64,000 bases of DNA, from the NCBI RefSeq assembly GCF_014636865.1, contig NZ_BMER01000001.1:1414718-1478717 (forward strand), in the 5' to 3' direction. The translations under genes and the position numbers were made by a program. This stretch comes from Parapedobacter pyrenivorans. Its GTDB lineage: Bacteria > Bacteroidota > Bacteroidia > Sphingobacteriales > Sphingobacteriaceae. The notes under the pieces were generated by a model. It was not told the DNA's origin and ran no database searches. It saw only the letters and a list, made by a program, of their open reading frames with translations. Numbering within the stretch: the first letter of the stretch is position 1; each line of letters starts with the position of its first letter. Shown in pieces: positions 1,909-19,614 of the stretch.

Positions 1909-4900
1909 ATGGAAAGAAATCATATCAATAATGGGCATCCTAAAAGCCAGCTGTTGCGCATTGGTACATGGAAGCTACTAACCCTAGTGATGGTTCCCCT
2001 TTTTATAATGGCAGCCGCCGGCGTGAACGCAGAGGCAAAGCTTCATCAGGCGCAACCCACGCTTGTCATTTCGGGTACGGTAACCGATGAAGCCGGTACT
2101 CCGCTGACTGGGGTCAGCATCAATGCAAAAGGGACAAACACAGGAACTAAAACTGCAACGGATGGAACGTTCCAAATCAGCGTGGCGCCGGGCTCGACCT
2201 TGGCAATTACGTATGTCGGGTTTGCAACGCAGGAAATCGTGGTAAACGAATCGCGCGAATTGCAAGTGGTGTTGGAAGAAAGCGGTGTTTCGTTGGATGA
2301 GGTGATCGTAACGGGGGTGGCCGCCGGTACACCGAAAACAAAACTTGGCTTCGCGATCGAAAAAATTTCCGGTGAACGATTATCGAAAGTGCCTGCGGTT
2401 GATGCCGCAACGGCATTACAGGGTAAAGTAGCTGGCGTGCGCATCACGAGATCAAGCGGTGCCCCCGGGTCCGAAGTGGATGTGCAGCTACGGGGTGTAA
2501 AGATGATATTCGGCTCATCAAACCCGTTGTATATCATCGACGGCGTATTAACGGAAAATGGATTGGCTGATATCAACGCCGAGGACATCGAAAGCATAGA
2601 AGTGTTGAAGGGGGCTGCGGCATCATCGCTCTATGGGTCACGGGCCGCAAACGGGGTTGTCAGTATCATGACCAAACGCGGGAATTCCGTAGCGGCGGGA
2701 GACGTGCGGCTTGATTTCCGGACGGAGTATGGTAAAAACGGGCTGGGTTTTGTGCCGGAGCGATCATCGGCAACCAACCGCCTCGTTGAAAATGGCGTAG
2801 TAAATTATGGCGTGACCGATCCCGATCGGGTTTATGACAATATATACCCGACCACGTATGACCATATCGACCAATTTTTTAATCCGGGCAGCTATGTGAC
2901 CAACCATCTCGGTATAAGGGGCACGTCTTCCAACAATAAGATCAGTGTATACACCTCGCTCCAACTTACCAAAGAGGAAGGCGTGGTAAAAATGGTAAAG
3001 GGCATTGAACGCGCTAATGTGCGGTTGAATTTGGATTATCGGATTTTGGATAACCTGACGCTCACAACATCCAATCTCTACACCCACACCAATGCAGACA
3101 ACCGGGCAAGTGGCGCCTTTGGGGCCTTATTCCGCTCGGACCCCGGAGCAGATTTACTCGCACCAAATATTGATGGGTCGCCTTATTTGGTCAATGCCAA
3201 CCGGATTGAGAATATCGTAAACCCACTCTATTCGATTACCAACTCGAAAAACGAATCCACGTTGGAGAAACTACTGTCCAATTTTTCGGTGAAATATGAC
3301 CCCACGGATTACCTGACGCTTTCTTCTTCATTCGGGACAACCCGCTCAATCGGCGAGAACTTGTTTTTGACACCGAAGGGCCGCCTGCGATACGACCTGA
3401 CCCCAGAGGTGGGTTATATATCCCGTGGGATGTGGAGGAACAGCGAAAAGGTATTTTCGGTAGATGCGATGTTTCATAAGAAATTCGGTGACTTTGATAC
3501 CAAGTTCAAGGTGCAGTACCTGTATGAGGCTTCTCGATCATCCAGCTTGAATGGCGGTGGCGGTGATTTGGGTATTGGTGGAATGAATATCACGTCTGTA
3601 AACCTTTCGGCCAATCAAACGGCCAGCTCAGCGGTTTTTAGCACGGTAGCGAACAACGTAGCCGCCCTATTTGTGCTGGATTATAAGGATAAGTATATCC
3701 TCGATGCACTGGTGCGAAGGGATGCTTCTTCGCTGTTTGGCGCCGATGTGAGGTGGCAGACGTTTTATCGCGTAGCCGGTGCATGGCGGATTACAGAAGA
3801 TGTGAATATCGGAGGAATTAATGAATGGAAATTGAGGGCATCTTATGGGGTAGCGGGACTACGGCCACCATTTGAAGCCCAGTATGAGGTATTTGCACTT
3901 CAGAACGGCGTGCCGGGTAATATGGAGACCTTGGGGAATAGCCTGTTGAAGCCGTCGTTCTCTAAAGAGACGGAAATCGGTACCGATATGCAGTTTCTGG
4001 ATCGGTTCTATTTCAGTGCTAATTATTCGGTTGCCAATAATACTGACCAGATTCTCAAAGTGCCTGTAACCCCGCTTTCCGGCGCAGCCTTCCAATGGCA
4101 AAACGCCGGCACTATCCAGACGCGGGTTTTCGAAACCAGCCTGAATGCCAACCTGATCAATAAAGCCAGTTGGGGGTGGGACGCAGGCGTTACATTCGAC
4201 AAGATCAAACAAAAGATTACCAAACTGAATGCCACCCCGTACATGTTGGACGGAACACGTTTTAGAATTGAAGAGGGCGTTGATTTTGGTGTGCTATACC
4301 TCGATAGGTTTGCACGATCGTTGGAGGAAGTAGCCAATCAGGTGCCGGCAGGGAGGGAAGCGAACGAACTATTTGTCGTCAATAACCAAGGATTTGTGGT
4401 GCGCCGTAACGAAATCGGCACCATCAATGAAACACCGGTTAAAATCAAGGATGACAATGGCAATGTGGTAGCCCTGCCCAGCCGGAGCATGACACCTAAT
4501 TTTAACCTGAACTTCAATACCACCATCCGCTTTAAAAATCTTTCACTTTATACACTGTGGTCGTACCAAGACGGTGGAATACTTTACAACCATGCGGTGC
4601 GCTATACCACCGAGCCCAAATTATTTGACCAATCGGGTAAGCCTTGGAATGAAGTGAAATCAGCCGCATATTATAGCAATGGCGGGCAGCAGATCGGTAT
4701 GCTTGGATGGGATAATGATGTGCTGGTGTTTGACGCTTCATTTCTCAAACTAAGGGAACTGGCGATCAGTTATGACATCAAGCCTGCAAAATGGCGATTT
4801 ATCGATAATATCAAGGTAAGCCTGATCGGCCGCAACATCTTGACGCTGACGAAATATCCGGGATTCGATCCCGAAGGGGTGTCGGCAGACCGCAGCAAAG

Positions 4901-4989
4901 GCGTTGATGCAAATGCCTTTAGGTTTGAGTCCAATGAGCAATATCCGTTATATAGGACATTCAGTGGCTCATTAGCGTTTACATTTTAA
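1909..4989 (+). CDS. SusC/RagA-type TonB-dependent outer-membrane receptor
   Basis: This 1026-residue protein has the SusC order: a signal segment (about residues 20-42, ending near VNAEA), a carboxypeptidase-regulatory-like domain (about 52-125, ISGTVTDEAGTPLTG), a TonB-box-like segment LDEVIVTG near 130, a plug domain (about 145-260, with DVQLRG, PLYIIDG and SLYGSRAANGV) and a 22-strand-type beta barrel to the C-terminal phenylalanine. It imports oligosaccharides through the outer membrane with energy from TonB-ExbBD. It begins the PUL and sits 12 bp before its SusD partner. There is no N-terminal STN/FecR-interacting domain, so regulation is more likely through the hybrid sensor at 14617 than through an anti-sigma factor. 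The glycan is inferred only from neighbouring enzymes. Confidence 0.95.
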   Translation: MERNHINNGHPKSQLLRIGTWKLLTLVMVPLFIMAAAGVNAEAKLHQAQPTLVISGTVTDEAGTPLTGVSINAKGTNTGTKTATDGTFQISVAPGSTLAITYVGFATQEIVVNESRELQVVLEESGVSLDEVIVTGVAAGTPKTKLGFAIEKISGERLSKVPAVDAATALQGKVAGVRITRSSGAPGSEVDVQLRGVKMIFGSSNPLYIIDGVLTENGLADINAEDIESIEVLKGAAASSLYGSRAANGVVSIMTKRGNSVAAGDVRLDFRTEYGKNGLGFVPERSSATNRLVENGVVNYGVTDPDRVYDNIYPTTYDHIDQFFNPGSYVTNHLGIRGTSSNNKISVYTSLQLTKEEGVVKMVKGIERANVRLNLDYRILDNLTLTTSNLYTHTNADNRASGAFGALFRSDPGADLLAPNIDGSPYLVNANRIENIVNPLYSITNSKNESTLEKLLSNFSVKYDPTDYLTLSSSFGTTRSIGENLFLTPKGRLRYDLTPEVGYISRGMWRNSEKVFSVDAMFHKKFGDFDTKFKVQYLYEASRSSSLNGGGGDLGIGGMNITSVNLSANQTASSAVFSTVANNVAALFVLDYKDKYILDALVRRDASSLFGADVRWQTFYRVAGAWRITEDVNIGGINEWKLRASYGVAGLRPPFEAQYEVFALQNGVPGNMETLGNSLLKPSFSKETEIGTDMQFLDRFYFSANYSVANNTDQILKVPVTPLSGAAFQWQNAGTIQTRVFETSLNANLINKASWGWDAGVTFDKIKQKITKLNATPYMLDGTRFRIEEGVDFGVLYLDRFARSLEEVANQVPAGREANELFVVNNQGFVVRRNEIGTINETPVKIKDDNGNVVALPSRSMTPNFNLNFNTTIRFKNLSLYTLWSYQDGGILYNHAVRYTTEPKLFDQSGKPWNEVKSAAYYSNGGQQIGMLGWDNDVLVFDASFLKLRELAISYDIKPAKWRFIDNIKVSLIGRNILTLTKYPGFDPEGVSADRSKGVDANAFRFESNEQYPLYRTFSGSLAFTF

Positions 4990-5001: not shown

Positions 5002-6528
5002 ATGAAAAGATTACTTATCTATATCGCCGCGGTTTTCATGCTGGTACCCAGTTCATGCAGTTTTTTCGAACCCATTGACATTGCAAATGAAAACCAGCCT
5101 AATATCAATGACCTCGCGACACCGGCCGAATTTTATTCGCTGTTGCGGAACGGCTATAATACCTGGTACAATGGATCCATAGCCGCCAGTCCGACAATCG
5201 GGTTTGCAAACGCAGAGCTGTTTCAGGCAGGAACGCCCGGTTGGGGATCGGGCACCATGTGGTTCAGGCCACGGCAGCAGCTTTTTAATGACGATACGCC
5301 TGACCCAGTGATCATCATCAACTTTGGCGCGTGGTATAACTACTACGGCAGCGTGGGCAGTGCAATCAAAATGTCCAAAATGTTTGAAGACCCGAATTTT
5401 AAGATCACGTTGGGAGGTGTGGATTATACCAACCGCGCAAAGGCGCATGCCTATTTGATCCAAGCACTGCTCTATGGCAATATCGCGTTGTTATATGATA
5501 AAGCCTATCTTTTTACAGCAGAGCACGATGCGTTGACGTTTGACTTTGCAGCCAATACCAAGACGTATCAGGAAGTGATGGATTACGCATTGACCCAATT
5601 GGATAGGGCGATCGAACTGATCGAGACGGATGCGATCGATGAAGACCCTGCATCCGTGGTAGCGGGCGTAACGTTTAACAAGGCGCTGCTCTTGCAATTT
5701 GCAAATTCGATGGGCGCCCGGTTTTTGGCGTCCAATGCCCGGACACAGGCAGAGAACAGCCAAGTGGATTGGAATCGGGTGAAAAGCTATGCCGAAAAAG
5801 GATTGCAAGCTGATTTTAAGGTGGCCTACGATGAAGGTTGGCGGGGAAAAGTGATGACCAGGGATGTCGGCTCAAACTATTTCGCATTTTACAATATGAA
5901 CTGGATCCGCATCAGCCAATGGCTATTGAATAAGATGGCGCCGGATGATCCTTATTCGGTATATCCGATCCCGGTAACACCAGGCAGCGACAGTTTTAAG
6001 GATTGGCCTGAAATCCAAAATTCCCCAGACAGCCGGTTGACGAAGTATTTTAGGTACGAAAATATGCGAAATTGGTTTGGGTCGGATCGTACAGAAAGAC
6101 CGGGATACGGTACGTTTATTTTGAGCCAATACCGGTACTGGCGATACTATGACATCGTAGAAAGAGGACAAGGGATGGTAGACCATTTCCTGAAAGCCGA
6201 AAACGATACGTACTTGGCGGAGGCGCTCATCCGTACCAGTGGTGACCGGGAACGAATTGCACAATTAATCAACAACAGCCGGGTAACCTTAGGAGACCTT
6301 CCGCCGGCGCTTGCCGCGGAAAGTTACGAAGCATTGGAAGATAAACTGTTTTATGAACGTTACGTAGAGTGCGACCTTGTATGGCCACAGTTGGGCTTTT
6401 TCGACCGGCGGCGAGGGAAGGATCAGCTGATCCCAGGTACGGCGAGGCATTTCCCAATACCAGGCCCTGAACTGAAAATGCACGGCCAAGCGCTATATAC
6501 GTTTGGTGGTGTCGGAAATGAAATGTGA
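5002..6528 (+). CDS. SusD/RagB-type nutrient-binding outer-membrane lipoprotein
   Basis: The 508-residue protein starts with a lipoprotein signal (VPSSC, lipidated Cys19) and continues as a SusD-like protein: an N-terminal SusD_3 region (NINDLATPAEFYSLLRNGYNTWY), helical TPR-like stretches in the middle, and a C-terminal segment with YEALEDKLFYERYVECDLVWPQ, typical of SusD proteins where the monomer ends in the barrel-capping fold. It forms the surface lid of the SusC transporter and binds the glycan. The start is 12 bp after the SusC stop, so the two are translated from one message. It diverges from the classic starch SusD, consistent with another substrate. Confidence 0.92.
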   Translation: MKRLLIYIAAVFMLVPSSCSFFEPIDIANENQPNINDLATPAEFYSLLRNGYNTWYNGSIAASPTIGFANAELFQAGTPGWGSGTMWFRPRQQLFNDDTPDPVIIINFGAWYNYYGSVGSAIKMSKMFEDPNFKITLGGVDYTNRAKAHAYLIQALLYGNIALLYDKAYLFTAEHDALTFDFAANTKTYQEVMDYALTQLDRAIELIETDAIDEDPASVVAGVTFNKALLLQFANSMGARFLASNARTQAENSQVDWNRVKSYAEKGLQADFKVAYDEGWRGKVMTRDVGSNYFAFYNMNWIRISQWLLNKMAPDDPYSVYPIPVTPGSDSFKDWPEIQNSPDSRLTKYFRYENMRNWFGSDRTERPGYGTFILSQYRYWRYYDIVERGQGMVDHFLKAENDTYLAEALIRTSGDRERIAQLINNSRVTLGDLPPALAAESYEALEDKLFYERYVECDLVWPQLGFFDRRRGKDQLIPGTARHFPIPGPELKMHGQALYTFGGVGNEM

Positions 6529-6584
6529 ATTGGTGTAATCAATTAATATTACGTAGGCTTAACGAGGCTAAAAAATAGATACAA

Positions 6585-6950
6585 ATGAAGAAGTTAGTTT
6601 TGCTTTTTGTAACCGCAGGCATATTGTCACAAGCATGTGAGCGGGATTTGGCATTCGAAACATTATCGATCACTGCTCCAGCACTAGAAGTGCAGATCGA
6701 AGGGGTGGCGCAAGGCACCGAATACCCCAAAATAGACGGAGCCACGGTAGAGGTGCTGAATAGTGCCGGACAATCGTTGGCTACGGCTACTACGGATGCT
6801 AAAGGCCGGGTGTTATTTACCGGCGAACAGCTGAAGGAAAAGGGCGTATTCACCGTAATGGCACAGAAGGACGCGCTGAGCGGTGAAGGAACGACACCCT
6901 ATTTATTGCTGAATGACGGCGTTACCTTATTTACATTGACCATACAATAG
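6585..6950 (+). CDS. Small PUL lipoprotein with carboxypeptidase-regulatory-like fold
   Basis: The 121-residue protein has a lipoprotein signal (ILSQAC, Cys18). The mature part reads as one small beta-sandwich: VQIEGVAQGTEYPKIDGATVEVLNSAG, then TDAKGRVLFTG, the pattern of carboxypeptidase-regulatory/transthyretin-like domains (variable loop, then TDxxGxxxF). It lies between susD and the glycosidase at 6961 in the same direction, so it is probably a surface-exposed accessory glycan-binding or scaffolding lipoprotein of this PUL. No catalytic residues were recognised. Function is inferred from context only. Confidence 0.7.
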   Translation: MKKLVLLFVTAGILSQACERDLAFETLSITAPALEVQIEGVAQGTEYPKIDGATVEVLNSAGQSLATATTDAKGRVLFTGEQLKEKGVFTVMAQKDALSGEGTTPYLLLNDGVTLFTLTIQ

Positions 6951-6960
6951 GATTATATCC

Positions 6961-9669
6961 GTGATTCGATACCGATTATCAATAGTCGGGTTGCTCGCAT
7001 TGGCAATCCTTGGTTCGTGCGGCCGACCGCAAAGGCCTTTTCTTTCTGATCTGGAGGCGGATAGCGATTTCCCGCTGTATACGACCTACGCGGCGGCGAC
7101 GGAACGCTCGAATTTCATATTGGATGAGGGCTATACTTTTCGGTATTACACCGATAGTCTGGGGGCTGATTTCACCACGGATACCGGTGGCGATATCGGA
7201 CTGGGATTCAAGATGGGTGATCAGTGGGTTTACCGGATTGAGGATATGCACCAAGCACCGATCATCACGGCGAGTTACCCGGACATGGTGCGATATACTT
7301 ATCGGCCTTTTGAAGGGGTTAAGGTGGATGTGTGGTTTGTGGTGCACAGCTCTACGATGGCGTTGATAGACGTTTGTGCAACCAATCTTACTGGAGCAGC
7401 TATGGATCTGGAGGTATACCCGTTCATGCGTAGCAATGGCCGCGCATTCCAGCAGATCGAACAACGGGACGATCATTTTCTTTTTGACCACCAGGAATAT
7501 CCAGATTCATGGACGCTAGATCATGACCTTCCCTATACGGACAGCATTCGGAATGTATGGCTGGCCGCTGAACCCCCCTCGGCTATGGGGGCATTCACCA
7601 GTGAAAACGGAGAGCCTTTCAAACTACCCAATCGCATTGAAAATGAGCGGCAACCGGTGCTGCAAATTAATGGCCGGGCTTACCTGCCCGGAAAACAGCG
7701 CGTCAATGATGCCGATGGCAGGTTGCGCCTACAGCTGATGATTGACGGCGATCCGACAAAATTGCTTACGGAAAGCAGCCCCGTTTGGGGAGGCATGCAT
7801 CCCGCCATCGATCAAGGAGGCTTCTACCGGTTGGAAGCGGCCATGCTCAACGAAAACGCCAAAACGTTTACCCTGCAAGCTTACGATGCCGCCAAAAGGT
7901 TATCGGGCCAGATTACAGGGGTGTTGACCAGTGAGAGCCAGCGCCATGACGTCGATCTGGTGTCTAGCGCGGCAATAACGGTAATGAGCGACACGGAAAT
8001 CCATTGGGATGCGCTACACCACGTGCACCTTGCGTGGAAGGCGGGTCGGGAACACGCATCATTTTCGATATACCGTAGGCATTATCCTGCAGCGTATTAT
8101 GAGCGGATAGTCAGTAACATCGTGGAAACGAGCTACACCGACGCAACCGCAGAACCGGGTGAAGTATATGGATATCTGGTTATCCCTGCAAACCAACAGG
8201 GCGAATTGGGAATGCATGCGCCAGAAGTGACTACAATCGGGCAGACGGTATTCGCGGATTTCGTGCAGGATACCATGGCTGCCGATTCTTTTACGGCGAT
8301 GGACTATGCCAAGCTGTTGACATTCAAGTATGCCTTGCAATTGAAGGCCGGAAAGTCGAAACAACTTCGTTTTATCCGCGGTATCGCATCCGTCACCGCC
8401 GCATCGGACTCACTGGTGCACGCCGCACGCGCACTGTTGCGCCAGCCGCTCGAACCTTATCAGCAGGACAACGAACGATTTTTTGCAAAAACCCCCGTGC
8501 CCCACTTCGGTGACCCAGATAAGGAAGCGCTATATTGGAGTGCCAACAACATGATGCGACAGGTATTTTATCCGTCGGAAGGGAAGTCTAGCTATAACTA
8601 CTATGTCTTTTCAAGGGAGCCCACTTGGGGATGGGGGCATGGCGGGCAGGTATTCCACGAAAGTATTGCGATGCTGGCGTATGCACATGTAGATCCTATA
8701 GGTGCGATGAATTCCCAACGCGTATACCGCGAACGCCAGTATGAAAACGGATACATCAACTATCGGACAGGTGGATACCTGGACGAGGTTATCGAGCACA
8801 ACGGCCAGCTGACAACCTCCGCACCTTGGTATGCTTGGCTCAACTGGGAAGTTTACCGGATAACACAGGATAGCGTGTTTCTGGGAGAAATGTATGATTC
8901 TTCGAAAAAGTTGTTCCGCTTCATCGTGGACAACCGGGACAGCGATGGGGACGGGCTCTGCGAGTGGGGTGGGCACGCCGTGCTCGAATCGGTGCGCGAT
9001 GCATTGGTAGCCGTGTGGGACGAAGTGGGATTCCCTACCAATTTCGAGAGCTTGGACCTCAATTGCATGTTGGTTAAAGAAGCCAAGTCGTTGGAGCAAA
9101 TGGCGCTGAAGCTAGGGTTAGCGGAAGAAGCAGCTGCATGGAAGGCCGATCATGAACAACGTAGCCGATTGATTAATGAAACGTTCTGGGACGAAAAAAA
9201 CGGATTTTACTATCAAGTAGATAAGGTAACGCACACCTTCAGCCATAAGGCCCAAGATGATTTGAAGCGCGACGAAATCATTGGCTTCCTACCACTTTGG
9301 GCAGGTGTTGCCGACAAGCAGCGCGCGGCACGGTTGGTTGAAAAGCTAACAGACACCACGCAGTTCTGGAGACCGTATGGTATACCAACGCTATCCGCAC
9401 GCGATTCGTATTACAACGATAAAGGGTATTGGAACGGGCCAGTATGGGTACAATGGAATTACCTGATCCAACTGGGGCTCCAAGATTATGGTTATCACGA
9501 TGTGGCGGACGAATTGGTCGATCGGGTGGCCAAGGGCATGGTTGCGGTATTAAAGGAAAATCACAATTTGTGGGAATTTTACAGCCCGGACCACCCTTGG
9601 GGCGGATACCATAAAACATACATTTGGGCAGGTATCATCAACCGGATGATGATGGATGCACAGCAGTAA
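6961..9669 (+). CDS. Lipoprotein glycoside hydrolase with (alpha/alpha)6-barrel domain (GH63/MGH1-like)
   Basis: The 902-residue protein begins at GTG 6961; this start gives a good lipoprotein signal (ILGSC, Cys20), and no better ATG exists. Residues about 30-500 look like beta-sandwich and linker regions. Residues about 500-900 form an alpha-helical toroid typical of GH63, trehalase and mannosylglycerate-hydrolase-like enzymes: WGWGHGGQVFHES, SAPWYAWLNWEVYR, DSDGDGLCEWGGHAVLESVRDA, RLINETFWDEKNGFYYQ, YWNGPVWVQWNYL and HPWGGYHKTYIWAG. Aspartate/glutamate in the ESVRDA and final regions would be the catalytic candidates by family analogy. It lies 10 bp after the small lipoprotein and 18 bp before the next enzyme, so it is a PUL enzyme, probably acting at the cell surface. 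The linkage it cuts cannot be read from sequence. Confidence 0.75.
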   Translation: MIRYRLSIVGLLALAILGSCGRPQRPFLSDLEADSDFPLYTTYAAATERSNFILDEGYTFRYYTDSLGADFTTDTGGDIGLGFKMGDQWVYRIEDMHQAPIITASYPDMVRYTYRPFEGVKVDVWFVVHSSTMALIDVCATNLTGAAMDLEVYPFMRSNGRAFQQIEQRDDHFLFDHQEYPDSWTLDHDLPYTDSIRNVWLAAEPPSAMGAFTSENGEPFKLPNRIENERQPVLQINGRAYLPGKQRVNDADGRLRLQLMIDGDPTKLLTESSPVWGGMHPAIDQGGFYRLEAAMLNENAKTFTLQAYDAAKRLSGQITGVLTSESQRHDVDLVSSAAITVMSDTEIHWDALHHVHLAWKAGREHASFSIYRRHYPAAYYERIVSNIVETSYTDATAEPGEVYGYLVIPANQQGELGMHAPEVTTIGQTVFADFVQDTMAADSFTAMDYAKLLTFKYALQLKAGKSKQLRFIRGIASVTAASDSLVHAARALLRQPLEPYQQDNERFFAKTPVPHFGDPDKEALYWSANNMMRQVFYPSEGKSSYNYYVFSREPTWGWGHGGQVFHESIAMLAYAHVDPIGAMNSQRVYRERQYENGYINYRTGGYLDEVIEHNGQLTTSAPWYAWLNWEVYRITQDSVFLGEMYDSSKKLFRFIVDNRDSDGDGLCEWGGHAVLESVRDALVAVWDEVGFPTNFESLDLNCMLVKEAKSLEQMALKLGLAEEAAAWKADHEQRSRLINETFWDEKNGFYYQVDKVTHTFSHKAQDDLKRDEIIGFLPLWAGVADKQRAARLVEKLTDTTQFWRPYGIPTLSARDSYYNDKGYWNGPVWVQWNYLIQLGLQDYGYHDVADELVDRVAKGMVAVLKENHNLWEFYSPDHPWGGYHKTYIWAGIINRMMMDAQQ

Positions 9670-9687
9670 ATCATATTGCAAAAACAC

Positions 9688-11727
9688 ATGAAGTTAAAGA
9701 AAACGGTTATTTTTTGTATGCTCATTGCTATCAGTTTGCTAGCTCAATTAGCCTTGGCCCAAAATTACATCAACAACCGGGCACCGCTTGCCAAAAAGCC
9801 GTATATCGAATTGCCGCTGGGTAGCATCAAGCCTCAAGGATGGCTGCACGAAATGCTGCTACGGCAAAAAAGCGGCACTACGGGGCAATTGGATACGTTA
9901 TATCCTACCGTTATGGGTGCACGAAACGGGTGGCTGGGCGGCGATGGCGATCAATGGGAGCGTGGCCCCTATTGGATAGATGGGTTATTGCCACTCGCTT
10001 ACATCCTCGACGATGAGGTGTTGAAGGCGAAGGTACAGCCCTGGGTCGAGTGGGCCATCAAGAGCCAGAAACCCAATGGGTACTTCGGCCCTGATAAAGA
10101 CTACGGATCCGAGCCGGGGCTTCAGCGCAACAACGCACACGACTGGTGGCCTAAAATGGTGGTGCTGAAAATCCTCCAACAATATTATTCGGCTACTGGC
10201 GATGACCGGGTCATCAAGCTGATGTCGGGCTACTTCAGGTACCAGTTGAACACGCTTACCGAAAAGCCTTTAGGTCATTGGACATTTTGGGCAGAGTTTA
10301 GGTCGGGCGATAATCTTCAAGCGGTGTACTGGTTATACAACATCACGGGTGAACGCTCGCTCTTGAAGTTGGCCGAGCTGATCCACGGGCAGGGTAAGGA
10401 TTATACCGGTATGTTTGAGCAACGTGAAGCGATGAGTACGATCGGTAGCATCCATTGTGTTAATTTGGCCCAGGGCATCAAAGAACCGATCATCTATTAC
10501 CAGCAAAATCCCAACAAGCGTTTCATCGACGCCGTAAAGCTCGGTTTTAGTGACATCCGCAAATTCAACGGACATCCACAGGGCATGTATGGTGGTGACG
10601 AGGCACTGCATGGCAATAACCCGACCCAAGGGTCTGAGCTGTGCACTGCCGTGGAGCTGATGTTTTCGCTGGAAAAAATGTTGGAAATCACCGGTGATAT
10701 CGAATTTGCCGAGCACCTGGAAAAGGTGGCGTTTAATGCGCTTCCTACGCAAGTGACCGATGATTTTATGGATAGGCAGTATTTCCAACAGGCCAATCAG
10801 GTGCAAATCCAGCGACGGCCGTACAATTTCAACATCAATCACGGAGAGACCGATTTGGTGTTTGGCTTGCTTACCGGTTACCCGTGCTGCACGTCCAACA
10901 TGCATCAAGGGTGGCCAAAGTTTACGCAGAATCTTTGGTATGCCACGGACGATGGTGGGTTGGCCGCACTGCTGTATTCGCCAAGCAACGTTACTGCAAA
11001 AGTTGGTAACGATGTCACAGTTTCGCTTACCGAAGAAACCAACTATCCGTTTGATGAGGCCATCCGTTTTACGTTGGCGATCGAGCGTGGAGTCGCGACG
11101 GTCGATTTCCCTTTGCACCTGCGTATACCGACATGGTGTACAGGCGCGCAAATTAAAGTGAATGGCGAGCTGTGGGGAGGGGATACCGATTCGGGGCAGA
11201 TTGCGATTATCCGCCGTACTTGGAAATCCGGTGATCGGGTCGAACTCGCATTACCGATGCATATCACGACGAGCACGTGGCATGAAAATGCGATGGCTGT
11301 AGAAAGAGGGCCGATTGTCTATGCACTGAAAATTGCTGAGCGCTGGGAAAAGAAAGCGGTTACCGACAATCCGGCCTTATATGGCTCCCATTACTACGAA
11401 GTATATCCCGAATCGCCGTGGAACTACGGCATCGTCGATTTCGCGAAAAAGGATCCGAACGATGTCTTTAAGGTCATCAAGCGCCAGGACGTGGATTTCA
11501 CCTATCCTTGGAACTTGGAAAATGCACCCGTTGAGCTAAAAGTAACGGGGAAGCGGATGCCTACGTGGACGCTATATAATGGTATGGCCGGCCCGTTGCC
11601 TCATAGCAATATCATCTATGGCATCCAGTCGACCAATGAACAACCGGAAGAAGAGATTACCTTGATACCTTACGGTGCTACCACGCTGCGTATTTCGGCC
11701 TTTCCAGTGATTAACCCTCAACAATAA
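9688..11727 (+). CDS. GH127-type beta-L-arabinofuranosidase (DUF1680 family)
   Basis: The 679-residue protein has an N-terminal signal peptide (ending near ALAQ) and the DUF1680 fold. The key residues of the family are visible: E317-L-C319 in SELCTAVE, and C400-C401 in GYPCCTSNMHQG. In Bifidobacterium HypBA1 the matching residues (E338, C340, C417, C418) hold a zinc and provide the cysteine nucleophile. I chose ATG 9688 over the in-frame TTG 9676 because it begins the signal peptide directly. It would release L-arabinofuranose in the periplasm from oligosaccharides imported by the SusCD pair. Some DUF1680 proteins act on other sugars (GH146 and relatives), so the substrate stays open. Confidence 0.85.
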   Translation: MKLKKTVIFCMLIAISLLAQLALAQNYINNRAPLAKKPYIELPLGSIKPQGWLHEMLLRQKSGTTGQLDTLYPTVMGARNGWLGGDGDQWERGPYWIDGLLPLAYILDDEVLKAKVQPWVEWAIKSQKPNGYFGPDKDYGSEPGLQRNNAHDWWPKMVVLKILQQYYSATGDDRVIKLMSGYFRYQLNTLTEKPLGHWTFWAEFRSGDNLQAVYWLYNITGERSLLKLAELIHGQGKDYTGMFEQREAMSTIGSIHCVNLAQGIKEPIIYYQQNPNKRFIDAVKLGFSDIRKFNGHPQGMYGGDEALHGNNPTQGSELCTAVELMFSLEKMLEITGDIEFAEHLEKVAFNALPTQVTDDFMDRQYFQQANQVQIQRRPYNFNINHGETDLVFGLLTGYPCCTSNMHQGWPKFTQNLWYATDDGGLAALLYSPSNVTAKVGNDVTVSLTEETNYPFDEAIRFTLAIERGVATVDFPLHLRIPTWCTGAQIKVNGELWGGDTDSGQIAIIRRTWKSGDRVELALPMHITTSTWHENAMAVERGPIVYALKIAERWEKKAVTDNPALYGSHYYEVYPESPWNYGIVDFAKKDPNDVFKVIKRQDVDFTYPWNLENAPVELKVTGKRMPTWTLYNGMAGPLPHSNIIYGIQSTNEQPEEEITLIPYGATTLRISAFPVINPQQ

Positions 11728-11733
11728 ATCCCG

Positions 11734-14562
11734 ATGACACTACACGTAATCAAAAAAATATCCAACAAAATATTCAATCATAGCACCTGTTTGTTCGCCT
11801 GTATTTGGTGTATCCCTGTGGCGCAGGCTCAGGAACTCAAGCAATTCGTGCGTGCTTCGGAGGGCATGGAGGTTACCGGATTTGTGATGGCGACCGGCGA
11901 GGAGCTTCAAAGTACCGGATCCCATCCGCTCGTGGCATTCGATATCAATGACCGTACCATGTTGGCTGCCGATGCGAAGGGAATTATCGATATTTCCCTC
12001 GAAACGGTAACCGGATTTAACCCGGCTTATAAAGCTATTTTGCGGTTTACGAATCGGTCAGCCGATACGTTGGTTTTATCCAACGTGGTACCGTTGGGCC
12101 GTGCCGATAAGGCCGTGTACATCACCGGAAAGGGCAAGCATGGCTTATCGCGCTCGCACCTCTTCCTTCCGGGGAAGCAACCGGTGAATTGCATCCTCCC
12201 CGACAATGCCTGGGAATTGGGATACAGCGCGATGGCGCTGCCCAATGGGCTTTCCGTATGTGCACTGGTAAGGCGGGATCGGGCCAGCGCATACAAGGCA
12301 ACCATCCGCCGCTTCGAGACCGTCATCGCACCCGGCGGCTCTATCGCATATAACCTGTTTGCGGATGTATACAGCGGTGATTGGCAACAAGGTTTGAAAA
12401 AGGTATTTCAGGAACGTTACCTGTATGACGTAGCGCAGTTTGACAATAGCCTGTTCGAGCGCGATGACCTTAAATGGATCCGGCATACCTACGTGATGCA
12501 TCTCATCATGGCATGGGATAAGTTTTACCACGATAGTGAAACCGGGCAATCAGGTCTTCCAGGGTTTATCGAACGCGGTAAGAAATTGTATGGCGGTGAT
12601 GACGTGATTGGACTATGGCCAACATGGCCTACCCTGGGCATCGACCAGCGCAATCAGTTTGACCTATTCCGTGATTTGCCGGGAGGCATGGCGCGCATAC
12701 GTCAGGACGCCGATTATTGCCGGAGTCACGGCACCGCTTTCTTCCTCTGTTATAACCCTTGGGACGAAAGTACGCGCGGCGAAGGCCATATGGAAGGACT
12801 ATACGATCTCATCATGCAGACTGGGGCGGATGGCGTCGTGCTGGATACCCAAGGGGGGTCCAGCACCGAGTTGCAGGAGGCGGCAGATCGCGCCAAACCG
12901 GGGGTGATCATGTATAGCGAGGGGTTTGCGGTGCCCAAGGATATGCAGGGCATTGTATCGGGACGCGTACACAATGCGCTGTATTACCCACCTATGCTAA
13001 ATCTCAATAAGTTTATCAAACCGGAGTTTACGATATACCGGGTTGCGGAATTGGCTAAGGAACCCATCAAACGGGAGTTTGCCACCGCCTTTTTTAACGG
13101 TTACGGAACTGAGCTCAATATTTTTGCGCCTGGCCAACCCGATTGGGTCGATGAACAGTACCGCTACCTGGGCCGTACAACTCGGATATTGCGCGAAAAT
13201 ACGTACAACTTCCTAAGTCGTGACTATATACCGCTTATTCCGACATTGGTGGATAGCGTTTATGCCAATAAATGGTCGTTGCCCGACAAGATCCTTTATA
13301 CGCTGTATAGCATCAAACCGGAAGGGTTTAACGCGCCGCTCCTTGAGGTAACACCTACGGAGGGTACCCATTTCGTCGATCTGTGGAATAACGAGGAAGT
13401 AGAACCCGTGATGCAGGATGGGCATCAATACCTCCCGGCAAAAATCCATGCCTTTGACCGCTTTGATTTGGGCACCAACAATGAAGGTGAAGTAGGTTGT
13501 ATTGCGCAGTTGCCTATGCTGTTGACGGTTTCATTGGACAACAACACATTGCACATCCATGCCGATAAAGGGCAGCAAATCAATGTTTGGGCAGGTGCGC
13601 CGGATTATGAGAAAAAGCCGGTGGAGCTAACTTCCGGCAGCCATGAGCTGGATATATTCGAGCATTTCGGCCGGCATGAGGGTAAGCTGGTTGTCCAACT
13701 ACTGGAAGACGGTATATTGCTTGACCAACGGGTAGCCGTTATCAAGGCGGGTACGCCGCGTCTAGCTAGTGAGGTTAGCCCTTCGGCAACGGTAGGCGAT
13801 ACGGAGGGTATGATCGAGATTCCGAAAGGTTCTTTTGTGTTTCACGCCACGAACGGTGATGAATTCATCGCCTACCCCAAGCACGATGAAGGAAAGACGT
13901 TCGAACTGACGGGTTTCTGGATGGACAAATATCCCGTAACGAATGCGGATTTCCTCCGGTTTATGGAAGCCAGTGGCTATCAGCCCACCGATACCGCCAA
14001 TTTCCTAAAGCACTGGCAGGGTGGCCGGCCGCTTAAGGGCGAGGAGCGTTATCCGGTAGTTTATGTGAGCTATGAAGATGCACAGGCCTATGCCCGCTGG
14101 GCCGGTAAGCGGTTGCCCACCGAAGTAGAATGGCAGTATGCCGCGCAGACGCCGGATCTCCGCGAGTGGCCTTGGTCGAAAGATACGAAGCACATCAAAC
14201 GGGAATTGGAACCCGTGACCAACAGCCTCACCGTATACAAAATCAAGGGTATTGATTCGAAATTAGCGAACTTGGGCGATGGCAAACCCTATCCGGTGGG
14301 AAAATACAAACGCGGCGCGAACCCCTATGGTTTGGAAGACCTCGTGGGATCGGTTTGGCAGCTGACCAACGATGTATATAAAAGCGGGTCTTACACTTAT
14401 ATCATGATGAAAGGTGGATCTTATTTCAATCCGACGTCCAGTTGGTGGTACGTACAAGGCGGTCCTCGGGAATTGCATTATCGGCAATACCTGCTTCGCG
14501 TTTCGCAAGGATTTGAACGCAATGCTACAGTAGGGTTTCGTTGCGTGAAAGATAAGAAATGA
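11734..14562 (+). CDS. Exported glycosidase-like protein fused to a C-terminal FGE/SUMF1 domain
   Basis: This 942-residue protein has a signal peptide (ending near VAQAQ), a large N-terminal region and a C-terminal formylglycine-generating-enzyme-like domain. Residues about 40-230 are beta-rich. Residues about 240-560 resemble a clan-D-like TIM barrel (DDVIGLWPTWPTLG, CRSHGTAFFLCYNPWDES, GADGVVLDTQGG, MYSEGFAVP), with D in VVLDTQ and E in YSEGF as candidate catalytic acids. From about residue 692 the FGE-sulfatase pattern is clear: MIEIPKGSFVF, FWMDKYPVTNADFLRFM, YPVVYVSYEDAQAYARWAGKRLPTEVEWQYAA, NPYGLEDLVGSVWQLTND, MKGGSYFNP and VGFRCV. It lies 6 bp after the arabinofuranosidase gene. The FGE domain in such fusions may serve as a sugar- or metal-binding module rather than modify a sulfatase; no sulfatase gene is present in the window. 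Confidence 0.7.
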   Translation: MTLHVIKKISNKIFNHSTCLFACIWCIPVAQAQELKQFVRASEGMEVTGFVMATGEELQSTGSHPLVAFDINDRTMLAADAKGIIDISLETVTGFNPAYKAILRFTNRSADTLVLSNVVPLGRADKAVYITGKGKHGLSRSHLFLPGKQPVNCILPDNAWELGYSAMALPNGLSVCALVRRDRASAYKATIRRFETVIAPGGSIAYNLFADVYSGDWQQGLKKVFQERYLYDVAQFDNSLFERDDLKWIRHTYVMHLIMAWDKFYHDSETGQSGLPGFIERGKKLYGGDDVIGLWPTWPTLGIDQRNQFDLFRDLPGGMARIRQDADYCRSHGTAFFLCYNPWDESTRGEGHMEGLYDLIMQTGADGVVLDTQGGSSTELQEAADRAKPGVIMYSEGFAVPKDMQGIVSGRVHNALYYPPMLNLNKFIKPEFTIYRVAELAKEPIKREFATAFFNGYGTELNIFAPGQPDWVDEQYRYLGRTTRILRENTYNFLSRDYIPLIPTLVDSVYANKWSLPDKILYTLYSIKPEGFNAPLLEVTPTEGTHFVDLWNNEEVEPVMQDGHQYLPAKIHAFDRFDLGTNNEGEVGCIAQLPMLLTVSLDNNTLHIHADKGQQINVWAGAPDYEKKPVELTSGSHELDIFEHFGRHEGKLVVQLLEDGILLDQRVAVIKAGTPRLASEVSPSATVGDTEGMIEIPKGSFVFHATNGDEFIAYPKHDEGKTFELTGFWMDKYPVTNADFLRFMEASGYQPTDTANFLKHWQGGRPLKGEERYPVVYVSYEDAQAYARWAGKRLPTEVEWQYAAQTPDLREWPWSKDTKHIKRELEPVTNSLTVYKIKGIDSKLANLGDGKPYPVGKYKRGANPYGLEDLVGSVWQLTNDVYKSGSYTYIMMKGGSYFNPTSSWWYVQGGPRELHYRQYLLRVSQGFERNATVGFRCVKDKK

Positions 14563-14616: not shown

Positions 14617-17600
14617 ATGAAACCGTACAATACGTATTGGTTGGCCTTGATGAGTGCGGTTTGGTTGGTCTTAAGCGGTACGCATGTTCGCGGGCAAGAG
14701 ACACAGCAGCGGCAGGCCAACTATTATTTCAGGAGCCTGCAAGTCGAGGATGGGCTTTCGCAAAATTCCGTCTACGCTGTTTTTCAGGATCAACAGGGCT
14801 ACATGTGGTTTGGTACCCAGGATGGGTTGAACCGGTATGATGGTCATACGTTCAAGATTTTCAAGAAGAATACCGGCGATCCACAGAGTCTTGGCAATAA
14901 TACGGTTACAGCCATTACGCAAGACCATCAGGGTCAGCTATGGGTTGGTACAGGTGACGGGGCTTATATATATGATCCCCGCAACGAAAATTTTACCCGA
15001 TATGATGCGCATAGCGAAGAGGGCGAGGCGGTGGCGGGGATGGTGCGCGACATCCAAGTAGATAAGCAGGGGAATGTGTGGATGGCGGTTTTCAATAAGG
15101 GCGTTTTCCGCGTGGCCAAGTCAAAAACGTTGACCTACTTCAACCTGGATCGCGAAGATAGCCCAACACCGGTATGGATAAGGCGGATTACATTTGATAC
15201 GGAGGGGCGGCTTTGGATCGGTACTTACCATCGCGGCATGTATTGCCTGGACCCGACGACTGGCCGGATTGAGCAATTCTTTATCAATCCGGATGCAAAG
15301 AACGTTGTCGATAATGATGTCAACGATATTTTTCTGCTAAATGCGGAGACGCTGTTGGTCGGTACCACCAACAAGGGGGTACAGGCTTTCAATCTCCGTA
15401 CACGTGCGTTTTCGCCGGTGCTTGAAACCAATGAACAAGGCAAATCGTTGTACGTACGCCGGATATACCGATCTACCGATGGTGAACTGTGGATCGGTAC
15501 CGAGAGCGGTGCATACATCTATTACCCACAAACCCAGCGTTATGAAAATGTACGTCATGTCAATGGCGATAGCTATTCCCTAACGGACAATGCAGTCCAT
15601 TCCGTCTACCAGGACCGTGAAGGGGGTATTTGGCTGGGTACGTTTTTCGGCGGAGTGAACTATTTTATCCGCCCGTACAGTCTTTTCGAGAAGTACTACC
15701 CGGTTACCGGCGAAAACTCCATCAAAGGAAAGAGCATCAGTGAGTTTTGCGAGGTGGATGAGCGCCAGATCTGGATTGGCACCGAAGATGCGGGGCTCCA
15801 TGTATACGATCCGGTTGCTAGGCAGTTTGAAAATGGAATCCTACCCGCTACCAATATCCATGCCTTGATGCGTGATGGCAATACGTTGTGGGTAGGGTCA
15901 TTCACCGAGGGGTTGTTTGTCGTAGATCTACGCACCAGGCTTTTCAGGCAGTACAAAAACACATCGGCTCCGCGATCATTGATCAATAATAACATTTATT
16001 CCATCTATAAAGATTATACCGGCACCATTTGGGTGGGTACAATGATGGGATTGTGCCAGTACGATCGCCAGGCGGATACCTTTATACCCATCCAGGACAC
16101 ACTCATCAGCGCTCAGGTGAATGATATGCTGGAAGACTACCAAGGTACACTGTGGTTTGCTACCATCGGCGAGGGCTTATATGCGTATGATCGGAGTGGC
16201 GATACCTGGCGGCATTATCCATTGCCCATACCGGGCGATGCCGCCAGCAATAAGATCACCTGCATACTGGAGGATAGCCAGCACCGGTTATGGCTCGGTA
16301 CGGAAGGCGCGGGTATCTATCGCTATGATCGCGAAAGCGATGCATTCACCAGTTTCTATTCGGAAGACAACGGCTTACCAAACAACGTCATTTACCAATT
16401 GGTTGAAGATTTGTACGGTCATATCTGGGGAAGTACCAATAAAGGACTTTTCAAGCTGGATGCCAAACAGCAGACAATCGATGTATATACCCATGCCAAT
16501 GGGCTATTGGGCGATCAGTTCAATTACAAATCTGGCTTCCGTAGCAAAGAAGGCAAACTCTATTTTGGAGGCATTAAAGGTTTCGTTGCCTTTACCCCTT
16601 ACAATAGCTGGCAGAACGAAGTGCCCCCGCCCGTGGTGATCAACAGCATCCAGATTCAAAACAGGGAAACCGTTGGCGTAGCGGAATTATCGCTCCCGTA
16701 TCGTTCCGCCGTATTCAGCTTAGGCTTTGCAGCGCTCAGCTATGTCTCACCTCAAGGTAATCAGTACGCCTACAAGCTGGAAGGGAAAGACAACGATTGG
16801 ATTACTACCGACTATCCATCACGGGTTACGTATTCTAATTTACCTCCCGGTACCTACACGTTTCGGGTTAAGGCCTCCAACAGCGATGGTGTATGGAATG
16901 AGCAAGGCGCCGATATGCTAATTCATATCCTTCCGCCGTTTTACCGCACGACATGGGCGTACCTGGTCTATTTTCTTCTTTTTTCATTGGCCACCTATTG
17001 GGCAATACGCTATTTCAGGCAGCGCATACGCGCCCGAAACAAACGGGTACTCCAAGCCATTGAAAGCAAGAAGGAAAAGGAACTATATCATACCAAAATT
17101 GATTTCTTTACGAATGTAACCCACGAAATACGTACGCCATTGAGCCTGATCAAAGCGCCGTTGGAGGAAATGATGAAAAATACCGGTCCGGCGGATAGCC
17201 ATTGGGAAAACCTTTCCATTATGCAGCGTAATACCAATCGGTTGCTAAAGTTAGTGAACGAATTGCTTGATTTCCGGAAGGCGGAAGCAAAGGGTGTGTC
17301 GGTACACTTTACCAATTTGGATGTGATTTTCGTGATTAAGGACACCCTGAGTCGGTTTATCCCATCGGCCAAGCTAAATGGTATTGCTATGGATGTCGCG
17401 TTACCCAATCATACGGTCCACGCGGATTTGGATGCAGAGATATTCACTAAAATTATCAGTAACCTGATTCATAATGCCTTGAAACACGCAAAGAATCGCA
17501 TACGGGTTTCTTTGGAAGTATTCGAAGGCTATATCAAGTTGGCCATTGCCAATGATGGTAACCGGATTCCCAACGATATTGCCGATAAGATTTTCCTTCC

Positions 17601-18606
17601 TTTTTTCAAACTCGACGAGAAGTCGCAAGGCTCCGGATTGGGACTGGCATTTTCCAAATCATTGGCTGAACTTCACAATGGCAACCTGTATCTCGAACAG
17701 CAAGTGCATTTCGACACCGTATTTGTACTGGAGTTGCCCACCCATCAAACCGGGCACCTACGGCAGGAAGATCTGTTGAGTGAGCGGTCTGTAGAGGTCA
17801 ATCCACTCACGCCGTTGGGAGACGTGGATGAATTGCTGCGCGGTGACGTTAAAAGGACGATTCTTTCGATAGAGGACAATGGAGAATTCCAGCAATTTAT
17901 GGTGAGCCAACTTCAGCGGGACTACGACGTACTGGTTGCTCAGCATGGTAAGGACGCGATTGGGGTACTCCACGAAGCGCAAGTAGACATCATCATTTGC
18001 GATATCATGATGCCCGTGATGGACGGCATTGCGTTCTGCCATTACGTCAAGGAAAACTTAAAGTTTAGCCACATTCCGATTATTCTATTGACTGCGAAGA
18101 CAGGCCTTCAATCCAAAATTGACGGACTCAAGGCTGGAGCAGACGAGTATGTCGATAAACCCTACTCCATTGATTTTTTACGTGCGCGCATCGAAAATTT
18201 GCTGGAGAGCCGTCGTAAACTTCGGGAGGCGTACCGCACCCTTCCGGAAACGGCCTACGAAAGCATTGCGCATTCCAAGGCTGACCAGCAATTTTTAGAT
18301 AGTTTGGTTAATGTCATCCATGCCCGCTTGGATGAAGTAGACCTTGATGTAGACAAGCTAGCAGAATCGATGAACATGAGCCGGGCCACATTTTACCGCA
18401 AGGTAAGGCACATTTCTGAATTGACTCCTAATGACTTCATCCGGTTGGTGCGGCTGAAAAAAGCAGCAGGCCTCCTTCGTGAGAAGGAGTACCGCGTGGG
18501 CGAGATTGCCTATTTGGTTGGATTCAGCTCACCATCTTACTTTTCGAAATGTTTTCAAAAGCAGTTTGGGGTGCTGCCGAAGGATTTTGAACGGGTCAAT
18601 GTGTAA
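14617..18606 (+). CDS. Hybrid two-component sensor kinase/response regulator with AraC output (HTCS)
   Basis: The 1329-residue protein has the HTCS order: signal peptide (1-27); two seven-bladed propellers of Reg_prop repeats (about 40-650, repeats of the GxIWxGTxxGLxxYD type); a Y_Y_Y domain (about 690-770, YAYKLEGKDNDWITT, PPGTYTFRVKASN); a transmembrane helix (about 780-800); a HisKA domain with H836 in THEIRTPLS; an HATPase domain (NLIHNALKHA, GSGLGLAF); a receiver domain with phosphorylatable D1129 in ICDIMMPVMDG; and a C-terminal AraC helix-turn-helix pair (IAYLVGFSSPSYFSKCFQKQFG). It senses an oligosaccharide in the periplasm and binds DNA to switch on the PUL. It lies 54 bp after the PUL enzymes and is very probably their activator. 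Confidence 0.95.
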   Translation: MKPYNTYWLALMSAVWLVLSGTHVRGQETQQRQANYYFRSLQVEDGLSQNSVYAVFQDQQGYMWFGTQDGLNRYDGHTFKIFKKNTGDPQSLGNNTVTAITQDHQGQLWVGTGDGAYIYDPRNENFTRYDAHSEEGEAVAGMVRDIQVDKQGNVWMAVFNKGVFRVAKSKTLTYFNLDREDSPTPVWIRRITFDTEGRLWIGTYHRGMYCLDPTTGRIEQFFINPDAKNVVDNDVNDIFLLNAETLLVGTTNKGVQAFNLRTRAFSPVLETNEQGKSLYVRRIYRSTDGELWIGTESGAYIYYPQTQRYENVRHVNGDSYSLTDNAVHSVYQDREGGIWLGTFFGGVNYFIRPYSLFEKYYPVTGENSIKGKSISEFCEVDERQIWIGTEDAGLHVYDPVARQFENGILPATNIHALMRDGNTLWVGSFTEGLFVVDLRTRLFRQYKNTSAPRSLINNNIYSIYKDYTGTIWVGTMMGLCQYDRQADTFIPIQDTLISAQVNDMLEDYQGTLWFATIGEGLYAYDRSGDTWRHYPLPIPGDAASNKITCILEDSQHRLWLGTEGAGIYRYDRESDAFTSFYSEDNGLPNNVIYQLVEDLYGHIWGSTNKGLFKLDAKQQTIDVYTHANGLLGDQFNYKSGFRSKEGKLYFGGIKGFVAFTPYNSWQNEVPPPVVINSIQIQNRETVGVAELSLPYRSAVFSLGFAALSYVSPQGNQYAYKLEGKDNDWITTDYPSRVTYSNLPPGTYTFRVKASNSDGVWNEQGADMLIHILPPFYRTTWAYLVYFLLFSLATYWAIRYFRQRIRARNKRVLQAIESKKEKELYHTKIDFFTNVTHEIRTPLSLIKAPLEEMMKNTGPADSHWENLSIMQRNTNRLLKLVNELLDFRKAEAKGVSVHFTNLDVIFVIKDTLSRFIPSAKLNGIAMDVALPNHTVHADLDAEIFTKIISNLIHNALKHAKNRIRVSLEVFEGYIKLAIANDGNRIPNDIADKIFLPFFKLDEKSQGSGLGLAFSKSLAELHNGNLYLEQQVHFDTVFVLELPTHQTGHLRQEDLLSERSVEVNPLTPLGDVDELLRGDVKRTILSIEDNGEFQQFMVSQLQRDYDVLVAQHGKDAIGVLHEAQVDIIICDIMMPVMDGIAFCHYVKENLKFSHIPIILLTAKTGLQSKIDGLKAGADEYVDKPYSIDFLRARIENLLESRRKLREAYRTLPETAYESIAHSKADQQFLDSLVNVIHARLDEVDLDVDKLAESMNMSRATFYRKVRHISELTPNDFIRLVRLKKAAGLLREKEYRVGEIAYLVGFSSPSYFSKCFQKQFGVLPKDFERVNV

Positions 18607-18681
18607 ACCTTGGAGCAGGCCACTTGATCAGATTTTGTGCAGCATCCTTTGGGAATTAACCGAAAATGTGTTAATTGGGAT

Positions 18682-19614
18682 ATGAAACCAGTCAATATGA
18701 CCTGCAAAACACTAACCACGGGATTTGCACTGTTGTTCATTTCCTATTTCGGACTTGCTCAGCAGCGATTCCCGCTCTATCCACAGGGTATTCCCAATGC
18801 AAAAGAGGCCGAAAACCTCGAACGCAATGAGCCCAATGCGATGGTGGATAGCGTAGCTTTCGACGTATCCGAGCCCAGTATCGCGCTGTTCTTGGCACCG
18901 GCGGATCGAGCAACGGGTACCGCAGTTATTATTTGTCCGGGCGGCGGTTACCACGCATTGCTAACCAAACGTGAAGGTAGCGACGTAGCTAGGGCATTTA
19001 CCAAATTGGGTATAACTGCCATTGTACTGCACTATAGATTGCCCAATGACCGTATTATGGTAAATCGGAGTATCGGCCCCCTGCAGGATTTGCAGCAGGC
19101 CATCAAAACCGTCCGTGAACGTGCGGGCGATTGGCGGATAGATTCCAATAGAATCGGCGTGATGGGATTTTCTGCAGGGGGACACTTAGCCGCTACCGCC
19201 GGAACGCACCATGCCGATGCATATATCGAAAATCCGGAAAGGACGAGCCTGCGTCCCGATTTTATGTTGCTGATCAATCCCGTTATCAGCTTCATGGATT
19301 CAGTGGGCCATACCGGATCGCGGGGTAACCTCTTGGGTGACCAGCCAGGTACGAAGCAGATGCTGTATTTCTCTAATGAATTGCATGTTGATTCGTTGAC
19401 CCCGCCTGCGTTTCTTGTCCATTCCGGAGCCGACGAAGTGGTTTCCGTGGAGAACAGTCTTTATTTTTATCAGGCATTGCGACAGCACCGGGTGGAAACG
19501 GGCCTGCATATTTACGCCAAGGGGGAGCATGGCTTTCTTACAGCGCCATCATTTGATGAATGGTTTGGTCGATGTGTATATTGGCTGGAACAAATGGGAT
19601 TGATGGACAACTGA
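18682..19614 (+). CDS. Exported alpha/beta-hydrolase, acetyl-xylan-esterase/BD-FAE-like
   Basis: The 310-residue protein has a signal peptide (ending near FGLAQ) and an alpha/beta-hydrolase fold. The oxyanion segment is IICPGGGYHAL, the nucleophile S164 is in GFSAGGH, the acid D251 is in GADEVV and the histidine H283 is in GEHGF. This order and the PGGGY motif fit carbohydrate esterases that remove acetyl or feruloyl groups from plant glycans. I chose ATG 18682 because it starts the signal peptide; an upstream GTG 18637 would add 15 residues with no sense. It lies 75 bp downstream of the regulator on the same strand and is probably the last PUL gene. Confidence 0.8.
   Translation: MKPVNMTCKTLTTGFALLFISYFGLAQQRFPLYPQGIPNAKEAENLERNEPNAMVDSVAFDVSEPSIALFLAPADRATGTAVIICPGGGYHALLTKREGSDVARAFTKLGITAIVLHYRLPNDRIMVNRSIGPLQDLQQAIKTVRERAGDWRIDSNRIGVMGFSAGGHLAATAGTHHADAYIENPERTSLRPDFMLLINPVISFMDSVGHTGSRGNLLGDQPGTKQMLYFSNELHVDSLTPPAFLVHSGADEVVSVENSLYFYQALRQHRVETGLHIYAKGEHGFLTAPSFDEWFGRCVYWLEQMGLMDN

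Follow-up and report, generated by a model that had tools for sequence, protein, structure and literature searches.

The window analysed here, a 64,000-nucleotide stretch of the Parapedobacter pyrenivorans genome (contig NZ_BMER01000001.1), contains a gene that joins a glycosidase-like TIM barrel to a domain resembling the formylglycine-generating enzyme (FGE). Based on the open reading frame (ORF) listing, Pfam and structure models, the gene is an intact ORF of 942 aa with an ATG start (11734..14562, plus strand, as are all features of this locus). From its N-terminus, the product comprises a likely export signal (aa ~1-32, 11734..11829; read from the sequence, and a helix at 2-31 in the model), a beta-sandwich (aa 35-215, 11836..12378), the predicted barrel (aa 216-500, 12379..13233), further beta-sandwiches (aa 501-680, 13234..13773) and the FGE-like domain (PF03781, aa 690-939, 13801..14550), which is devoid of the copper-binding cysteine pair; the limits of the sandwiches follow the secondary structure of the model. 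PF03781 was the sole Pfam-A match of the protein at E<=0.01, and its score of 148.3 bits against a cut-off of 23.3 (E 4.3e-43) shows that the match is not due to chance. The fusion of an FGE-like domain to a glycosidase-like barrel, which a preliminary description of this DNA had reported as an FGE/SUMF1 domain placed behind an N-terminal enzyme part, was thereby confirmed.

The gene resides in a polysaccharide utilization locus (PUL), as had also been described, composed on one strand of a SusC/SusD-like pair, with SusD assigned by position, together with glycosidases and a regulator. Upstream lie a SusC/RagA transporter (1909..4989; TIGR04056, 538.3 bits), a SusD-like protein (5002..6528; called by position, with PF14322 sub-threshold at E 0.063), a GH63/MGH1-like glycosidase (6961..9669; PF22422, 144.7 bits) and a GH127-like gene of the beta-L-arabinofuranosidase type (9676..11727; PF07944, 95.5 bits), whose stop codon is 6 bases ahead of the ATG of the fusion. 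Downstream follow a hybrid two-component regulator carrying Reg_prop, Y_Y_Y, HisKA, response regulator and HTH_18 domains (14617..18606) and an esterase resembling BD-FAE and pectin acetylesterases by Pfam and NCBIfam (18637..19614). The protein in the SusD position, for which the relative in locus L065 likewise has no Pfam match, is perhaps a divergent member of the SusD family (L and G denote our locus and genome labels). A small ORF in the same-strand cluster (6579-6947, 122 aa scanned) gave weak Ig-like/MG3 matches and clusters with small ORFs of L052, L060 and L065. The GH127-like protein is itself divergent, with 95.5 bits to PF07944 versus 360.2 for its counterpart in L067, and its only NCBIfam match, aceric acid hydrolase, reached 109.6 of 950 bits, far under the cut-off. 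A promoter and terminator scan yielded sites no more numerous than in shuffled sequences.

A single conserved peptide pattern was then run against the genome contigs of 84,980 species, which gave 447 confirmed relatives of the fusion, and kept the best 80 of these 447. Wherever the group was named, these 80 belonged to Bacteroidota, one being labelled only "uncultured bacterium". Among them, the FGE-like domain was present in all 78 members long enough to contain it, of which 75 are complete to the end, L073 is cut by a contig end, and L086 and L106 lose the reading frame within the domain; the remaining two (L072, L117) reach a contig edge before the domain. The nearest named genome, that of Parapedobacter soli (L039), encodes a relative with 75% identity over the N-terminal part. 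The family occurred in 16 of 395 sampled genomes of the phylum and in 13/171 genera, and it is patchy within the genus, where one of eight other genomes carried a full-length copy; a search of viral contigs found nothing. An accidental or degenerate fusion was rejected given the conservation of the domain in every member long enough and by a clade-wide signature. Several individual loci showed peculiarities of their own. L042, from Bacteroidales bacterium 6E, holds two tandem members of the same cluster as the fusion (6724-9849 and 9866-12733), a duplication. The homologue in G321 (G321:C1; L022, 1144-1170, minus strand) has an in-frame TAG inside the FGE-like domain (RLPT*VEWQ), with the remainder open downstream, and represents either a sequencing error or a young pseudogene. 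In L086 and L106, the ORFs (863 and 864 aa) leave the family frame inside the FGE-like domain and end near 12472, and this shared exit suggests a common frameshift or error.

No family model accounted for the enzyme part. For the first 685 residues of the fusion, Pfam returned nothing at E<=10; searches of PDB sequences, whether with this part or with its profile, yielded chance-level matches only (E 0.47; E 0.024); and a Pfam scan of 16 relatives produced just two single matches at E 0.05-0.06, which we judged to be chance. As neither Pfam nor NCBIfam had a model found to cover the barrel, calling the N-terminal part glycosidase-like depends on structure prediction. AlphaFold2 modelled residues 31-685 with a pLDDT of 90.1 and a pTM of 0.91 from a 61-row alignment, and the full-length protein with a pLDDT of 86.9 and a pTM of 0.84 from a 50-row alignment, the latter value suggesting a defined arrangement of the domains; alignment rows were hand-picked for completeness and spread (49, 26 or 60 of the 80 loci, plus the window). 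A Foldseek search with the model of residues 31-685 placed the GH129 enzyme 8rzk first (E 1.3e-14), followed by GH13 and GH36, which lends the previously proposed TIM-barrel glycosidase a predicted fold. VIA-align ranked the GH13 chain 5z0u best (Z 23.1, rmsd 3.4 over 330 residues), and its list also held GH27 beta-L-arabinopyranosidases near Z 20.

Two carboxylates stand out in this predicted fold. Asp371 (codon 12844..12846) lies at the end of barrel strand 4 (GADGVVLDT; strand residues 367-370) and Glu396 (codon 12919..12921) at the end of strand 5 (VIMYSEG; strand residues 392-396); they are proposed as nucleophile and acid/base, respectively. GH13, GH101 and GH129 place their catalytic residues in this way, with an Asp at the end of strand 4 and a Glu at the end of strand 5. 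Both residues were invariant in 16/16, 50/50 and 61/61 rows of three overlapping alignments, and in the 16-row alignment they were kept down to 26% identity. In the 50-row alignment, the mean frequency of the majority residue was 0.75 for the barrel and 0.52 for the N-terminal sandwich, the lowest of the parts measured.

Subsequently, we examined the FGE-like domain, which by profile matched the FGE structure 6s07 in the PDB (E 1.4e-25). FGE is described in PMC12123546 as using Cu(I) held by two cysteines in a bis-thiolate site. The preliminary description had remarked that these copper cysteines were not obvious, and the check bore this out. The motif GGSxxCxxxxC, checked on 16 stand-alone FGE homologues, was found in none of the 75 complete family members versus 16/16 stand-alone FGEs from related genomes. 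Counting without gaps from the shared GGS, the cysteine places correspond to Asn899 and Trp904, within NPTSSWWYVQGGP, where the GGS is closely followed by the aromatic stretch SSWWYVQGGP (aa 902-911, 14437..14466), modelled with low confidence. The signature WYxxGGP was present in 13 of 15 partner domains versus 0 of 25 other PF03781 domains. The domain was nearly as conserved as the barrel (mean majority-residue frequency 0.72 vs 0.75), and the last 56 residues, a stretch chosen by us, reached 0.88, the highest of six stretches measured. Several low-confidence blocks of the model fall on conserved barrel loops (aa 341-350, 371-380, 411-420) and on the WW loop; this overlap would fit a shared site not resolved by the predictor, and is only suggestive.

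The pairing also exists as two genes. In three genomes of one genus (G365, G404, G428), the barrel gene, 27-30% identical to that of the window, is free of the FGE-like domain, and in all three a separate FGE-like gene is located directly upstream on the same strand. At the one split locus scanned, the FGE-like gene matched PF03781 with 158.1 bits and the barrel gene had no Pfam match; the split FGE-like protein has no cysteine pair and retains WYMQGGP. Both split genes begin with stretches that read as signal peptides, so the partners would be expected to come together outside the cytoplasm. A tree of 42 PF03781 domains grouped the 15 partner domains (12 fused, 3 split) in a single clade with 100/100 support. 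This tree used 27 of the 30 PF03781 loci fetched (L194 and L207 were removed by the motif filter, L205 is a family member), with L028 also filtered out; L204 and L217 stop short of the cysteine place, leaving 25 of the 27 outside domains scored there. It supersedes an earlier FGE tree that had only true FGEs as the outgroup and from which L027 and L028 had been filtered. Fusion in most of the lineages seen, combined with adjacent genes in another, is a classic sign of parts that work together. The constant pairing, the loss of the cysteine pair and the single clade of split and fused forms mark the domain as an old, dedicated partner of the barrel.

These observations can be brought together in one model, in which the gene product would be an exported glycoside hydrolase from a family not described before. 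By analogy with GH13, GH101 and GH129, Asp371 would act as the nucleophile and Glu396 as the acid/base of an enzyme that cleaves an alpha-type linkage with retention; GH13, GH129, GH36 and GH27-type families cleave alpha or equivalent linkages. The FGE-like domain would be a permanent companion positioned on the barrel, where it would complete or gate the substrate pocket, with the aromatic SSWWYVQGGP loop occupying the place where true FGEs hold copper, and would carry no redox chemistry of its own. Taken as a whole, this model of a glycoside hydrolase with a redox-dead, FGE-like pocket partner has, in our estimate, an even chance of being correct. The domain probably works for the sugar enzyme and not as a sulfatase activator. 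Among the roles considered for the partner (lining the pocket, binding glycan only, stabilising the barrel only), pocket lining is the one we would favour. The fuller version, a new glycoside hydrolase family combining a GH13/GH129-type barrel with a redox-dead FGE fold whose copper pocket has turned into an aromatic, sugar-contacting loop, and which elsewhere forms a two-subunit exported complex, is put forward tentatively and is somewhat more likely to fail than to hold. The preliminary description had offered that the domain might hold the barrel, bind a sugar or perform an unrecognised oxidation; the first two gain from the constant pairing, the split genes and the conserved C-terminus, the third found no positive support, with the cysteine pair in 0/75 members, and overall that interpretation was partly supported.

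Several results weigh against this model. Whole-chain Foldseek overlays were loose (TM about 0.4, rmsd about 12), with only the barrel fitting well. Profile comparison by hhalign yielded no convincing kinship to GH36, GH13 or GH97 (probabilities of 4.9, 0.3 and 7.0%; single-pair P-values of 0.008, 0.24 and 0.005), the partner alignments built from fetched genes being small at 6, 9 and 12 rows; the catalytic roles consequently hang on position in a predicted fold. The barrel is a plausible glycosidase-type fold with a plausible mechanism, and its membership in GH36, GH13 or GH97 is unsupported by profiles. The WW loop (aa 902-905), central to the proposed pocket, was modelled with a pLDDT <50, and two distant fused members (L004, L035) do not have the exact WYxxGGP. 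Of 25 other Bacteroidota PF03781 domains extending to the place of the cysteine pair, 20 lacked the pair and 5 had it, so its loss is common in the superfamily, and it is WYxxGGP, rather than the loss of the pair, that marks this family. FGE-like domains without the pair are already known in SUMF2 and PvdO. The three split loci are near-identical and therefore count as one case, and in a barrel tree the split and distant rows sat on very long branches (8.0, 8.7), making their placement unsure. Finally, SusC was found in only 10/80 loci (two queries, many flanks cut), and any of GH127, GH172, MGH1-like, GH116-like or epimerase genes in 29/80; most relatives are not clearly in PULs, in part because the flanks were cut.

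Among the competing explanations, the one that fares best is that the FGE-like domain is a carbohydrate-binding module that tethers the enzyme to its polymer from outside the active site. According to PMC10907252, FGE domains form one subtype of the C-type-lectin ligand-binding fold; in addition, the conserved loop rich in Trp and Tyr would suit stacking against sugars, and the C-terminal site is frequent for accessory modules. Such modules usually come and go between relatives, whereas this domain was retained in 78/78 sufficiently long members among the best 80, persists next to the barrel gene where the two are split and matches the barrel closely in conservation; we consider the module explanation unlikely, at perhaps the level of a serious minority option. 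Less probable still is that the barrel is no working hydrolase, being instead a transglycosylase, a lyase-like enzyme or a binding protein built on the same fold. The barrel has no convincing sequence tie to a characterised family, GH13-type folds also serve transferases, and branching enzymes and GlgE were among the VIA-align matches. Nevertheless, close, split and distant branches all keep the carboxylates at the two catalytic strand positions unchanged, which argues for a hydrolase, as do the other glycosidases in the PUL of the window and the glycosidase neighbours of some relatives.

Oxidation chemistry was the next possibility considered, namely that the FGE-like domain relies on a different cofactor to oxidise the glycan or a partner protein. 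Relatives on this fold do oxidise; EgtB, OvsA, SenA and PvdO appeared among the sequence or fold matches, and NCBIfam calls PvdO, which lacks the cysteines, a dihydropyoverdine dehydrogenase. Against this, the cysteine pair is missing in all 75 complete members, Pfam revealed no iron-binding domain of the N-terminal kind, and the NCBIfam models scored far under their cut-offs (EgtB 77.6/360, SenA 67.5/420, OvoA 31.8/400 bits; PvdO, NF051459, 32.3/500 bits). An enzyme of the ergothioneine or selenoneine type was rejected on these scores, oxidation of the FGE type by the domain is very unlikely, and an oxidoreductase of another kind is improbable. That the domain is a working FGE for sulfatases encoded elsewhere would suit the 28 PF00884 sulfatase matches of the genome, and can be dismissed almost entirely because none of the 28 is inside the window, as the preliminary description had noted of sulfatases, because the copper pair is missing, and because the genome has a separate FGE on another contig with the motif intact (G000:C5:5720-6592; L183).

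For the substrate of the proposed hydrolase, the neighbouring genes offer some hints. Among 78 same-strand adjacent genes (77 from the 80 loci plus the GH127-like gene of the window), there were 10 GH127, 8 MGH1-like, 7 aldose epimerase and 4 DUF2961/GH172 genes, along with unrelated ones (8 TetR, 4 phospholipase-D-like, 3 Ku). GH127 occurred within the fetched flanks of 24/80 loci, the 80 together spanning 1.39 Mb; 47 loci exceed 21 kb, and 18 of them have it. A PF07944 base rate of 36 match rows in 41 genomes, ~147 Mb by our own sum, gives ~0.34 expected against these 24 loci, a comparison limited by differing methods, by the relatedness of the loci and by the abundance of such matches in the genome of the window itself (6 rows). 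Owing to these confounders, an arabinose substrate could not be claimed, and the GH127 neighbour is only a hint. Indications of ribose (ribokinase, an ADP-ribosylglycohydrolase-like gene, a RhaT-like transporter) were confined to a few loci spread over deep branches (L180, L103, L039 and the split L179, L184 and L185), the ribokinase being above the TIGR02152 cut-off in L180 and below it in L185. In P. soli (L039), an ADP-ribosylglycohydrolase-like gene immediately follows the fusion, ahead of the regulator (12848-14434), and homologues of it are near family members in L180 and L103, both of which also have ribokinase genes; tblastn found none in the window. Both GH127 and GH172 comprise furanosidases, and ribose takes the furanose form in glycosides of this sort; our guess is therefore that the substrate carries furanosides, for example arabinose trimmed by the neighbouring GH127, or ribose. 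This guess is weak, since 51/80 loci show none of the neighbours tested.

Judged by Pfam, NCBIfam and the open-licence literature, what is new as far as these searches reach is a barrel family not yet catalogued, together with its consistent association with an FGE-like domain devoid of copper cysteines; the barrel fold and FGE-like domains without the cysteine pair were already known. Screening the open-licence PMC literature by title or start of abstract, where a passing mention may escape notice, retrieved no description of the fusion and no naming of the family. On whether the fusion might be common and already assigned, a point raised in the preliminary description, it proved common within the family and had no assignment in Pfam, NCBIfam or that literature. 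With no Pfam or NCBIfam model found for the enzyme part, annotation of these proteins may draw on the FGE-like domain only, and they could be mistaken for sulfatase activators. Should the pairing prove functional, the FGE fold would have been reused as an obligate partner of a glycosidase, and the naturally split pair makes this idea directly testable with two separate proteins.

Collectively, the barrel part can be set beside several known glycosidase families. GH129 (3,6-anhydro-D-galactosidase / alpha-N-acetylgalactosaminidase; 8rzk, 5opq, 5wzq) provided the best Foldseek matches, spanning sandwich and barrel, with the first rank coming with a TM of only 0.41 and a whole-chain rmsd of 12. 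GH129 was absent from the 50 VIA-align rows, which excludes nothing, and neither the window nor the 16 aligned relatives matched its Pfam model PF11308; a PF11308 search of 148 genomes gave no match, with controls likewise giving none, and is uninformative on absence. We know of no GH129 enzyme with an FGE-like domain. The GH13 alpha-amylase superfamily (5z0u, 4e2o, 1g1y) superposed best on the barrel (Z 22-23 over ~315-335 residues) and shares, by position in a predicted fold, the Asp at strand 4 and the Glu at strand 5; it differs in that the fusion has no PF00128 match and an hhalign probability of only 0.3%. GH36, GH97 and GH101 were represented among the Foldseek matches as related multi-domain folds; the fusion has no Pfam match to any of the three, hhalign gave only the 4.9% and 7.0% already quoted for GH36 and GH97, and GH101 was seen as fold matches only (5a55). 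The C-terminal domain of the fusion, for its part, shares its fold with FGE relatives, superposing on CalU17 (6vqp) with Z 21.1 and on the FGE 6muj with Z 19.4. It differs from a true FGE in having no sulfatase in the window, in the replacement of its copper cysteine pair and in the glycosidase-like barrel to which it is attached or paired.

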